Source: Bacteroidota bacterium
GTDB lineage: Bacteria; Bacteroidota; Ignavibacteria; Palsa-1295
DNA length: 64,000 bases
Assembly (NCBI GenBank): GCA_018266755.1
Contig: JAFDZW010000005.1
Location: 1,563,963 to 1,627,962 of the forward strand
Direction of reading: 5' to 3'
Made by a program: the position numbers and the translations under genes. Positions 4,597-52,586 of the stretch are shown in pieces. Below the pieces are notes generated by a model. That model made no database searches, was not told the origin of the DNA, and saw nothing but the letters and a program-made list of their open reading frames with translations. Within the stretch, counting starts at the first letter, position 1. Every line of letters begins with the position of its first letter.

Positions 4597-4616
4597 GGAT
4601 GGAAGCGTGATGGAAT

Positions 4617-4703
4617 GTCATTCCGAGCAACGCGAGGAATCTGTTACGCTGCGCTGTTTAGGATGATCGTTCATCGCGGATTCCTCGCTCCGGTCGGAAT
4701 GAC
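4617..4703. repeat. Palindromic repeat, family A copy 2 (diverged)
   Basis: Inverted arms of about 25 bases (GTCATTCCGAGCAACGCGAGG on the left, its imperfect complement on the right) lie between the convergent gatC and meaB genes. The arm sequence differs from the other five copies at several positions, so this is a subtype. The hairpin could act as a bidirectional transcription block, but there is no clear T-tract. Confidence 0.8.
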
Positions 4704-4709
4704 AGAGGG

Positions 4710-37716: not shown

Positions 37717-38004
37717 TTGGTCGTTCGCTGAAAACAAGAAGGGGTGAAGGTAGGGTTTCGATTGCCTGGAAGTAGTAACCAGGGTAGGATTATATTAATA
37801 CTCTCAATGCAACGTCATTCTGAGCGAAGCGAAGAATCCCTCGATGAAACCCTGTGAGGCTCCGCCAAAGGGATTCTTCGCTTCCCTCAGAATGACGTAG
37901 GTATAAGCGGGTCAAACCGGGGCCATTTCTTTGGAGGTAGCATATACAGCATGGCTTCTCGTATTCTAATTAAGCGGAACTGTATCTTCTGGGCAGTAGT
38001 TAAC
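37717..38004. other. Divergent hrcA / fur intergenic region
   Basis: About 290 bases between hrcA (-) and the Fur-family gene (+). The middle is occupied by palindromic repeat copy 3 (37812-37898). An AT-rich stretch (37789-37801) could hold the hrcA promoter. No CIRCE and no gene were seen. Confidence 0.5.
37812..37898. repeat. Palindromic repeat, family A copy 3
   Basis: Inverted arms beginning ACGTCATTCTGAGCGAAGCG, with one mismatch on the right, surround a core reading CGATGAAACCCTGTGAGGC then TCCGCC. The core is shared in the same orientation with copy 5 and inverted in copies 4 and 6. It lies between divergent hrcA and fur. Confidence 0.9.
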
Positions 38005-38479: not shown

Positions 38480-38896
38480 ATGCCAACGTTAGCAAACACC
38501 AAAACCTATGAGAATCTGAAGGAAGGGTTCGCAGGCGAGTCGCAGGCGAATCGTCGTTATCTCTACTTCGCACGTCAGGCCGATATCGAAGGCTACCCGG
38601 ATGTTTCCGGTGTCTTCCGTGACACTGCCGAAGGAGAGACGGGTCATGCGTTCGGCCACCTCGAATTTCTTGCCGAAGTAGGCGACCCGGCGACGGGCAA
38701 GCCGATCGGCGATACGAAGATGAACCTTGTCGCAGCAGTGGCCGGCGAAACCTACGAGTACACCGAAATGTACCCGGGCTTCGCACGCACGGCACGCGAA
38801 GAAGGCTTCGACGAGATCGCCGAATGGTTCGAGACGCTTGCACGCGCCGAGAAGTCGCATGCCGGCCGCTTCCAGAAAGCGCACGATACCCTCTAA
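38480..38896 (+). CDS. Rubrerythrin, diiron domain only
   Basis: A 138-residue four-helix diiron protein; members act as peroxidases in the cytoplasm. Iron ligands are visible as Glu20 (AGESQAN), Glu53 and His56 (EGETGH), Glu90 ([10 protein letters not shown]) and Glu124/His127 (RAEKSH). The usual C-terminal rubredoxin domain is absent, so an outside electron donor, perhaps the Fe-S protein encoded next, is needed. The start has a strong AAGGAG eight bases upstream. Confidence 0.93.
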
Positions 38897-39073: not shown

Positions 39074-40402
39074 ATGATGAGGTTTGATCCGCACGACCCG
39101 AAATACTGGGATAAGCAAGAGCTGGATTCGGAGTTCACTCGTGTTGTCGATATCTGCAATGGATGTCGGCTGTGCGACAATCTCTGTCCGCCGTTCGCCG
39201 ATCTCTTCGATCGGATCGATCAGGAAGACGACAAGCAGACTGCCGCAGGCATCGGTCATGAGAACCCCGTACTTCAACTGAAGGCAGCCGATTACAAGCA
39301 CACGGTCGATACCTGCTATCAGTGTAAGCTGTGTTACCCGAAGTGTCCGTACACGCCGCCGCACGAATACCAACTCGATTTCCCGCGCTTGCTCTTGCGT
39401 GCGCAAGCGATCGATGTGAAGGAGAACGGCAAGTCGTTCAAGAACAAGCTACGAGACTCGTTCCTCGGCGACGCCGACAAGACGGCGAACATTGCGACGA
39501 CCTTCAATGCTCTCTTTAACTGGGCGAACACAAACCCGATGACCCGCTCGCTGATGCAATCGGTCGTCGGTGTGCATAAGAAGAAGAAACTCCCCCATTA
39601 TTACGCAGAGCCGTTCGACAAGCGCGCGAAGAAGAACGGCGCATCGGTGGCGGCGCCAGTGGACAAAGTCGCACTCTATTATACATGTCTCATGAACAAC
39701 AACCGGCCGTGGGTGCCGGAGCAGTTCACGGAGATCTTGCAAGCACATAACGTCGAGGTGATCGTCCCGCCACAGGAATGCTGCGGCATGCCCGAGCTTG
39801 GCACGGGCGAGCTCGACCGTGTATATCCGAAGGTCAACCGCAACATCGAACGCCTGCTTCCGCTCGTCGATGCAGGATACAAGATCATCGCTATGAGCCC
39901 GAGCTGCTCGATGATGCTACGCCTGGAGTACGAGCAGTACGCACAGGACAAGGAAGCGGCGAAACGATTAGCTGCCGCAACGCTCGACCCGTGCGAGTAC
40001 TTGATGCAATTGCATCGCCGCAAGCTGCTCAAGACCGAGTTTCCAGGAGCGTCGACGATGAAAGTGAGCTACCACGTACCGTGCCACCTGAAAGTGCAGA
40101 ACATCGGCTTCCAGACTCGCGACCTGCTGAAGCTCATCCCCGGCGTTGAGGTCCAGACGATCCAGCAATGCTCCGGCCACGATGGCTCGTGGTCGATGAA
40201 GCAAGAGTATTACGAAATCTCGCTCGATGCAGGGAAGAAGCTCTTTAAGGCGATCGAACGCGAGAAACCCGCGAAGGTCGCCAGCGACTGCTCGCTCGCA
40301 CACCTGCACATCGAGGAAGGCACCGGCGAGATCGCCGACCATCCCATCGAGATCGTCTATCGCGCGATGGGATTTACGAAATTTTTGAACCGGGGGCGAT
40401 AG
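39074..40402 (+). CDS. (Fe-S)-binding oxidoreductase, GlpC/HdrD-like
   Basis: A 442-residue protein. It has two 4Fe-4S ferredoxin motifs (Cys28/31/34/38, CNGCRLCDNLCP; Cys81/84/87/91, CYQCKLCYPKCP) and two cysteine-rich CCG-type domains (ECCGMPELGTG and HVPCHLKVQN...CSGHDGSWS). This is the architecture of GlpC and heterodisulfide-reductase-like subunits that pass electrons between carriers. Rubrerythrin upstream and DUF3501 downstream make it a likely redox partner of rubrerythrin. The TAG stop shares its last base with the left repeat of the inserted cassette. Confidence 0.88.
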   Translation: MMRFDPHDPKYWDKQELDSEFTRVVDICNGCRLCDNLCPPFADLFDRIDQEDDKQTAAGIGHENPVLQLKAADYKHTVDTCYQCKLCYPKCPYTPPHEYQLDFPRLLLRAQAIDVKENGKSFKNKLRDSFLGDADKTANIATTFNALFNWANTNPMTRSLMQSVVGVHKKKKLPHYYAEPFDKRAKKNGASVAAPVDKVALYYTCLMNNNRPWVPEQFTEILQAHNVEVIVPPQECCGMPELGTGELDRVYPKVNRNIERLLPLVDAGYKIIAMSPSCSMMLRLEYEQYAQDKEAAKRLAAATLDPCEYLMQLHRRKLLKTEFPGASTMKVSYHVPCHLKVQNIGFQTRDLLKLIPGVEVQTIQQCSGHDGSWSMKQEYYEISLDAGKKLFKAIEREKPAKVASDCSLAHLHIEEGTGEIADHPIEIVYRAMGFTKFLNRGR

Positions 40403-40855
40403 GCCACGGATGAACGCGGATCAAGCGGATTTGCACAGATGATTAAGCACCAAGCGATTACCGAGAAGATTATTCGAGGGTATTACAAAGTGTACAATAC
40501 GCTGGGATACGGTTTTCTCGAAAAGGTCTATGAACAAGCACTCTGTCTTGAACTTCGTAATCAAGGGTTGCACGCGAGTACACAACAAGAAATAGAAGTA
40601 TACTACGAAGGCTCTCGGGTCGGGCTGTATTATGCCGATCTTGTTGTAGAGCATTGCGTCATTGTCGAACTCAAAGCAGCCGAAGGACTTGCGCCAGAAT
40701 ACGAAGCCCAACTACTCAATTATCTGAAAGCAACAGACATTGAAGTAGGGTTGCTCATGAATTTCGGCCCAAAAGCACAGTTCAAACGGATGATCTTTGA
40801 CAACGAACGAAAAGCGATCCGTGATAATCCGCTTGATCCGCGTTCATCCGTGGCC
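40402..40855. mobile_element. GxxExxY cassette with perfect 30-bp terminal inverted repeats
   Basis: The left end 40402-40431 (GGCCACGGATGAACGCGGAT...) is the exact reverse complement of the right end 40826-40855, all 30 bases. The cassette carries one gene, for a GxxExxY protein, and separates the Fe-S gene from DUF3501. No transposase is encoded. A single similar end is present at 45588-45615. The right repeat encodes the C-terminus of the GxxExxY protein. Confidence 0.85.
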
Positions 40856-40861
40856 AATTGA
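40439..40861 (+). CDS. GxxExxY protein (PD-(D/E)XK nuclease-like)
   Basis: A 140-residue member of the GxxExxY family, usually considered a compact PD-(D/E)XK nuclease-like fold. The name motif is GYGFLEKVYEQAL (about 23-35); YYADLVVEHCVIVELKA carries the D...ExK catalytic pattern; and QLLNYLKATDIEVGLLMNFG is the conserved C-terminal block. The gene lies within 30-bp inverted repeats, and its last dozen residues are encoded by the right repeat. The biological role of the family is unproven. Confidence 0.92.
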   Translation: MIKHQAITEKIIRGYYKVYNTLGYGFLEKVYEQALCLELRNQGLHASTQQEIEVYYEGSRVGLYYADLVVEHCVIVELKAAEGLAPEYEAQLLNYLKATDIEVGLLMNFGPKAQFKRMIFDNERKAIRDNPLDPRSSVAN

Positions 40862-40880: not shown

Positions 40881-41489
40881 ATGTATATGAAACCGATTGA
40901 ATTTGCTGATGTAAAGAATATCTACGAGTACGAGAAGGTGCGCACTGCCTTCCGCCAGCAGGTGATCGCTGCCAAGAAGCCGCGGCGCATGCACCTTGGC
41001 GAGGATATGACGCTCGTCTTCGAGAATCGCGATAGCGTACTCTTCCAGATCCAGGAGATGATCCGCACCGAGCGCATCATCACTGACGAGGGCATGCAGC
41101 ACGAGATCGACACCTACAACCAGATCCTACCGAAGGAGAACGAACTCTCGGCGACACTCCTGATCGACATCACCGAGAAGCACCTGATCAAGCCGATGCT
41201 CGATTCGCTCGTCGGCCTTGGAAAGGACTCGTTGTTTCTGAAGATCGGCAACCAGGAGCTCCCTGCGCTGTTCGACGAATCGCAGCTCGAAGACGATCGT
41301 ATCAGCGCGGTGCAATACATCAAATGGAAGCTTTCGGACGACGATGTACAGGCATTTGCCAACCGCACAACCCGGATCAGCCTCGTCTGCCGCCACCCGA
41401 ACTATCTTGCCGAGCACGTCCTTACAGAGGAGCAGCGTATGGCATTATCAAACGATCTTCTTGAATCCGTTCGCCCGGTCTCGGCGTAA
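40881..41489 (+). CDS. DUF3501 family protein
   Basis: A 202-residue protein of the DUF3501 family, whose genes recur next to rubrerythrin and GlpC-like Fe-S protein genes in diverse bacteria; no activity is established. The N-terminus has the family pattern YEYEKVRTAFRQQVIAAK. The central VFENRDSVLFQIQEM segment is a strong hallmark, then a C-terminal QYIKWKLSDDDVQAF. It is probably a partner in peroxide or oxygen defence. It starts 19 bases after the cassette gene, so the cassette likely broke an older gene adjacency. Confidence 0.87.
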   Translation: MYMKPIEFADVKNIYEYEKVRTAFRQQVIAAKKPRRMHLGEDMTLVFENRDSVLFQIQEMIRTERIITDEGMQHEIDTYNQILPKENELSATLLIDITEKHLIKPMLDSLVGLGKDSLFLKIGNQELPALFDESQLEDDRISAVQYIKWKLSDDDVQAFANRTTRISLVCRHPNYLAEHVLTEEQRMALSNDLLESVRPVSA

Positions 41490-52344: not shown

Positions 52345-52460
52345 GCGAAATAATATAAGAATGAAGAACACCGAATCATGAAAAAACGACTTGGGTTATT
52401 CCGGTGGGTGGAGGCGTGGTGTTAATTTGATGTACGTATTGTCATTCTACCCAACGCACC

Positions 52461-52543
52461 GTCATTCTGAGCGAAGCGAAGAATCCTTTTGGCGGAGCCT
52501 TACAGGGTTTCAGCAAGGGATTCTTCGCTTCGCTCAGAATGAC
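52461..52543. repeat. Palindromic repeat, family A copy 4
   Basis: Arms (52461-52487 and 52517-52543) enclose the shared core in inverted orientation relative to copies 3 and 5. A stray GTCATTCT stands 20 bases upstream at 52441. It lies between the divergent recQ and TfoX-C genes. Confidence 0.9.
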
Positions 52544-52586
52544 GTCTGTTGAAAACCGTTTCAAAGGATTCACAACCCTAGTATCA

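Follow-up and report, generated by a model that had tools for sequence, protein, structure and literature searches.

RAYTs are thought to serve REPINs in trans. In REPIN-RAYT systems the repeat family and the gene co-evolve (PMC3116915; PMC8266576). The element described here resembles these systems in that one small DNA-processing gene is flanked by inverted short repeats proper to it, inverted pairs without the gene are dispersed in large numbers, and the repeat family tracks the phylogeny of the gene. In contrast to them, no Y1 (HUH) transposase lies between the repeats, the gene encoding instead a PD-(D/E)XK protein; the ends are arrays of 9-10-nt iterons of up to ~40-60 nt, whereas RAYT systems have single REPs; and one genome can have several GxxExxY genes (as many as 12), while RAYTs are single copy each. 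The RAYTs of the same genomes have different palindromes and lack the cassette ends.

Two other kinds of element share part of this plan. MITE-type elements are also short, gene-less, intergenic and bounded by inverted ends, and are polymorphic in presence and absence; they differ in their target duplication, which was not found here, and our gene-bearing relative has no known transposase. The intervening sequences (IVS) of 23S rRNA with S23/IVP are likewise units of ~430 nt with terminal repeats around one small ORF; they bear tandem repeats near the ORF start and have been proposed to be selfish elements (PMC4990558). However, S23 is an unrelated four-helix bundle and not a nuclease, the IVS lies in rRNA and is removed by RNase III, and the iteron motifs are other ones; the cassette studied here stands between protein genes, and the Pfam match of its ORF is to PF13366 only.

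The cassette between the GlpC-like and DUF3501 genes

The window, that is, the whole 64-kb stretch of DNA that was analysed, contains the cassette in the following setting:

38480..38896, + strand: rubrerythrin gene, first gene of the conserved neighbourhood
39074..40402, + strand: GlpC-like Fe-S protein gene (CCG domains; GlpC model below its curated cut-off)
40399..40440, + strand: left terminal inverted repeat, exact core 40402-40431
40408-40411, 40418-40421, 40427-40430 and 40437-40440: GGAT/AGAT iterons of the left repeat, spacing 10, 9 and 10, read from the sequence
40439..40861, + strand: GxxExxY gene for a predicted nuclease of 140 aa (PF13366 and TIGR04256 matches)
40817..40858, - strand: right terminal inverted repeat, exact core 40826-40855, coding for the C-terminus of the GxxExxY protein
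40881..41489, + strand: DUF3501 gene, starting 22 nt past the right repeat

A PTPS gene follows DUF3501 downstream. Profile matches agree with the preliminary description of this DNA, which had placed the cassette between a GlpC-like Fe-S gene and DUF3501, with rubrerythrin before them. The perfect terminal inverted repeats of 30 bases reported there were confirmed as an exact core; the arms themselves extend to 42 nt on each side, are 90% complementary, and are made of GGAT iterons at ~10-nt spacing. They are the longest inverted pair of their kind in the whole 64 kb. Their local-alignment score is 64, shuffled flanks giving at most 27, and an 18-nt end probe occurs exactly twice in the window, both times at the cassette arms (0.18 occurrences expected by chance). 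The G+C content is 0.45 inside the cassette and 0.55-0.59 outside.

The TAG with which the GlpC-like gene stops (40400-40402) shares bases with the outer edge of the left repeat, and the GxxExxY ORF starts where this arm ends on its inner side. The right end had been said to supply both the C-terminal codons and the stop region of this ORF; the last codons do lie within the right arm, but the TGA (40859-40861) is found just outside it. Similarly, the operon described as split is interrupted by the cassette but not broken, both neighbour genes being intact. No DDE transposase is present inside the ends, where the sole ORF with a known domain is GxxExxY.

After the TAG of the GlpC-like gene the open frame continues in frame into the GxxExxY gene (40400-40438). 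An in-frame fusion with the upstream gene was rejected as a rule, the frames across loci being evenly spread (28/28/31), and because these frames are random the junction in the window is probably due to chance.

Apart from the cassette, the window holds four hairpins (827-915, 4616-4704, 37812-37898 and 52460-52544) with the common motif GTCATTCTGAGCGAAGCGAAGAATCC or a variant of it, which belong to another dispersed palindrome family of this genome.

Empty sites and gene-less copies

An empty site in close relatives, which the preliminary description had proposed to look for, was found in the congener G001, where glpC and DUF3501 are adjacent and no cassette is present; the family members G004, G003 and G009 also have the two genes adjacent without GxxExxY. 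The same gene at this place in all relatives, named beforehand as the finding that would speak against an insertion, is therefore not what the genomes hold. It might be argued that GxxExxY is an old, immobile gene whose flanks were turned into inverted repeats by chance or local conversion, as some orthologous sites are occupied in several related genomes. The existence of empty sites, in the congener and for the gene-less copies described below, refutes this explanation, which is also at odds with GxxExxY gene counts that range from 0 to 4 among the genomes of one family and with the recurrence of the same plan in many phyla; we hold it to be extremely unlikely.

In G012 and G011, which belong to another genus of the same family, a GxxExxY gene occupies the same glpC/DUF3501 gap. 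Its ends differ from those in the window (TCTGAACTATGATTTATGTGATT...), with arms that are 97% complementary in G012 and have decayed in G011. Over its match, the protein of G012 shows 39% identity. The simplest account would be two independent insertions in one gap. In both genomes the glpC frame enters the element, which provides the last codons and a TGA stop, a statement limited to glpC in G012 and G011, where relatives fix the frame. The idea that gene-less copies usually supply the host stop, to which the ORF-caller values pointed, was discarded, as the empty site of L242 has a native stop. A second GxxExxY gene of the window's own genome (contig C11) has ends of yet another, third type, CCACAGAGGTACACAGAGGGCACACAGAG.

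Gene-less copies are abundant in the family. The TCTGAACNNTGATT end reaches 47 copies per genome, against 0 or 1 for a reversed-pattern control, and occurs mostly as gene-less inverted pairs of ~93-125 nt; gene-less TCTGAAC-type pairs (~95 nt) were found in G012, G007, G009, G008 and G011. End variants are genome-specific, and the gene-bearing copy in G012 and G011 has the locally common variant. The joined flanks of gene-less copies align unbroken to sister genomes (e.g. G012 C39 with G007 C213; G012 C24 with G010 C64), the insertion in G012 C39 coming immediately after the upstream gene's stop. As in MITE-type elements, then, the TCTGAAC end type has gene-less copies with the same inverted ends that are polymorphic between relatives; for the window's own end type just two outward-facing gene-less pairs were found. 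In the planctomycetes Laterigemmans (G197) and G203, a CCACGGA-NNN-ACACGGA end occurs 203 and 63 times, respectively, the reversed pattern being absent (0) from the former. Within the C-type end pairs surveyed, no gene other than GxxExxY was found.

Taken together, the empty site in G001, the empty sites of the gene-less copies and the occurrence of the same architecture in many phyla bear out the proposal of a discrete movable unit without a transposase. Comparison between genomes indicates that the window cassette is an insertion and that the class is mobile, and, because gene-less copies exist, that the ends would be enough for movement; mobility of the cassette is well supported at the level of sequence. 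The target-site duplications that had been hoped for did not appear: at the ends of 34 elements no flank repeat was clearly above the mispaired expectation, and none was convincing.

Other copies with the ends of the window cassette, also anticipated, exist in its own genome as two gene-less pairs, G000:C5:1525644-1525693 (L006) and G000:C1:427665-427717 (L009), but these are outward-facing, and there is none elsewhere in the window. Their outer ends face each other over a short gap. In G012, other palindromic repeats are nested inside gene-less TCTGAAC elements (L230, L233 and L240).

What stays invariant in the TCTGAAC end is the stretch TCTGAAC-NN-TGATT together with the GATT iterons that come after it every 9-10 nt. 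Conservation of the stem as a selected feature was rejected, since the spacers drift and the iterons stay; the match of each arm to its own partner exceeded that of mispaired arms in G012 (p 0.008) and G009 (p 0.016), but not in G007. These data bear on whether the cassette acts at the RNA level, in the manner of the 23S rRNA IVS, with arms that pair in the mRNA and are excised by RNase III, the unit being tolerated or used as a processing site and its DNA mobility being rare and incidental. Such a reading would agree with the strong hairpin that the cassette forms when folded as RNA (-169.8 kcal/mol, z -9.6; none of 100 shuffles did as well), with its insertion in sense within operons, and with the plan of IVS elements, which also have terminal repeats and one small ORF, the Coxiella IVS having tandem heptamers before the ORF (PMC4990558). 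Nevertheless, the 34 related elements keep their GATT iterons while the spacers drift and often mispair, so that the iteron and not the stem is conserved; many gene-less copies stand between convergent genes or near gene starts, and no Rfam family matched the cassette. We consider this reading very improbable.

The cassette could also be mobile through an enzyme encoded elsewhere, a transposase or a RAYT that recognises the ends, with the nuclease as a passenger for repair, maintenance or competitor exclusion. Most of these genomes, that of the window among them, have RAYT genes, and the gene-less copies show that the gene is not needed in cis; moreover, G007 has at least 12 gene-less CATGATT elements, and no GxxExxY gene with the exact end was found in its fragmented assembly. 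On the other hand, RAYT loci have palindromes of their own, with a TCTGAAC pair in 0 of 30; G006 and G004, in neither of which Y1_Tnp was matched, each contain 13 TCTGAAC copies (the G004 assembly being 67% complete); and no transposase-sized TCTGAAC end pair was seen among the matches listed. A generic passenger, furthermore, would not make the end type track its own phylogeny across phyla, as is described below. Among 13 genomes, which are related and in which end types were assigned partly by hand, the TCTGAAC copy number correlated with whether a GxxExxY gene of the type was present (rho 0.69) and not with RAYT genes (rho -0.02). RAYT was rejected as the mobiliser on the basis of its own palindromes and of this lack of correlation, and a foreign enzyme in general seems to us rather unlikely.

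Distribution of the architecture and its relation to the protein

The 134 loci tested comprised 80 named loci, 26 from the window's own family and 28 more from its class. Inverted arms, counted when the inverted-arm score around the gene was at least 28, were present in 106 of the 134 GxxExxY loci (79%) and in 2 of 101 ORFs taken from these loci as controls (2%), a rate that applies to the part of the GxxExxY family sampled by the 80 named loci, which are the best matches to the window protein. A first, earlier survey of the arms had used shuffled and mispaired controls. The bacterial hosts include members of Bacteroidota, Ignavibacteriota, Planctomycetota, Verrucomicrobiota, Nitrospirota, Chloroflexota, Thermodesulfobacteriota and Pseudomonadota, and among the archaeal ones are methanosarcinal archaea. 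The arms consist of arrayed 9-10-nt iterons with GGAT/GATT, CAGAG/GGAG or GGAA cores; a lag of 9 or 10 nt gave the best self-match for 76 of the 105 left arms, versus 25 of 105 control stretches.

Between tandem genes, with neighbours called by ORF length instead of by a trained gene finder, GxxExxY was co-directed 62 times and opposed 0 times (p 4e-19); an earlier, smaller count had given 51 co-directed and 1 opposed. The median distance from the upstream stop to the left arm is 4 nt, and the gene seems to rely on host transcription. For closely related GxxExxY pairs, dN/dS was 0.03-0.13; because of this ratio and of its co-direction with the neighbours, the gene is likely to be expressed and selected. 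Of the 197 genomes of the class that were sampled, 136 encode GxxExxY proteins.

The upstream genes and operons are unrelated in most loci. This finding, together with the near-identical elements L073 and L074, which have 95% protein identity and stand in different contexts (within hsdR-hsdM and after an aminotransferase gene, respectively), led us to reject a homing endonuclease cassette. At six loci from several phyla (L073, L079, L084, L085, L116 and L197), hsdR of a type I restriction operon is immediately followed by an ACAGGAT-type element, and in four of them hsdM comes next; at L087 an hsdM-like start stands beside an element copy. The location behind hsdR, and a weak partial PADLOC match of GxxExxY to PDC-S02 (E 3.6e-4), would suit a defence or addiction gene, a restriction-type nuclease incidentally spread in inverted-repeat cassettes. 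We regard this as improbable: most loci are in unrelated operons, there is no partner gene within the unit, and no phage-family match was obtained below E 0.018. Searches for phage records encoding a relative found none, and matches were present in eight plasmid records, all below 60% identity.

End type follows the phylogeny of the enzyme. Across a tree of 133 GxxExxY domains, 7 changes of core type were counted, compared with a mean of 26.5 and a minimum of 19 for shuffled labels. In cross-phylum pairs, end similarity drops with protein distance (rho -0.39, with 0 of 300 permutations as extreme, figures that are indicative, given that related sequences are not independent), and the sequence just outside the element, used as a control, gave a rho of -0.03. 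The ACATGGAT-ACAGGAT ends correspond to one protein clade that spans Nitrospinota, Nitrospirota, Acidobacteriota, Planctomycetota, Chloroflexota, Spirochaetota and others. The spread of this clade across phyla may be due in part to transfer of hsdR-hsdM operons containing the element; other members of the clade have other neighbours. These comparisons of sequences indicate that ends and protein co-evolve.

The predicted nuclease and its possible role

The window gene is by sequence a direct member of the GxxExxY family (TIGR04256 / Pfam PDDEXK_3), matching PF13366 (3e-40, 137.7 bits versus a cut-off of 22) and TIGR04256 (2e-40, 137.8 bits versus a cut-off of 35). In 58 homologues the PD-(D/E)XK residues D67, E77, K79 and Q91 are invariant, N94 and L96, flanking Y95, are nearly so, and E28 and Y31 of the name-giving motif are invariant or nearly invariant. 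No sequence relative with a solved structure was significant. The AF2 model (mean pLDDT 90) had as its best solved Foldseek matches Cas4 SSO0001 (1.9e-4), the lambda-type LHK-Exo (6.5e-4) and Hjc (6.8e-3), with TM ~0.4-0.5, lambda exonuclease and MGME1 being also among them (E from 1.9e-4 to 7e-3). Judging from the model, GxxExxY would share the PD-(D/E)XK fold and catalytic residues with Cas4, lambda-type exonucleases and Hjc; unlike Cas4, it has only 140 aa and lacks the Fe-S cluster region. An ExK with a QxxxY after it characterises the RecB/Cas4/lambda-exonuclease branch, whose members act on DNA ends, and for this reason a role at hairpins or broken ends fits the predicted nuclease better than sequence-specific restriction.

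The family is annotated by motif and fold only, and its description apparently contains neither the iteron ends, nor the gene-less copies, nor the insertion rule. In the open-access literature searched we found no description of this cassette class, although an earlier account may exist elsewhere. The name GxxExxY turned up in just two of the papers covered, one on a virus genome and one that touches on the domain in passing.

The explanation that we favour, and consider moderately probable, is a transposase-less mobile element whose PD-(D/E)XK nuclease is the enzyme matched to the ends and serves the gene-less copies in trans. As the ends track the enzyme tree and occur as gene-less copies, this unstudied family may help its cassette to spread. 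That the product could itself be the mobility factor had been suggested in the preliminary description; the suggestion gains indirect support from the tracking of protein phylogeny by end type across phyla, from GxxExxY being the sole gene found in the surveyed C-type end pairs and from purifying selection, while its catalysis of movement is a prediction. The GxxExxY protein, a minimal PD-(D/E)XK nuclease, would bind the iterons of its own family and cut or trim DNA at the inverted ends, probably when these are hairpin-extruded or single-stranded; the cassette, or a gene-less copy in trans, would then be copied into a new intergenic site without target duplication. Judging from its position, the gene would have no recognisable promoter of its own, and the insertions that persist would be those just downstream of a stop codon and in sense, expressed by read-through from the host operon and causing no damage. 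Counting against this explanation are the gene-less copies of G007 without an exact-end gene, the outward-facing pairs of the window type, and the own-arm pairing in G007, which was no better than mispaired. We know of no PD-(D/E)XK nuclease that acts alone as a transposition enzyme; TnsA acts together with TnsB.

If ends and nuclease form one system, many genes annotated as 'hypothetical nuclease' would be explained at once, along with intergenic repeats of the CACGGAT, ACAGGAT and TCTGAAC-GATT types. It would represent a second, enzymatically different case, beside RAYT-REPIN, of small intergenic repeats that spread without a transposase, and the matched enzyme and iteron families would make it directly testable. 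More tentatively, a stand-alone PD-(D/E)XK nuclease of ~120-140 residues might be the mobility enzyme of pan-prokaryotic iteron-ended elements and their gene-less satellites. This would amount to transposition without a transposase or recombinase, a counterpart of RAYT-REPIN, and the S23 four-helix proteins may form a third system of the sort.

Free-standing S23/IVP genes of the class also have inverted iteron arms (L141-L170; in the window's own genome L157, G000:C5:1389136-1389450), with different motifs, e.g. AGTAACGAGT, TTGGCTATTGGC and GGCAGAAGGCAG. These S23/IVP cassettes are a parallel element class, and their genes are co-directed with the neighbours by 13 to 1.
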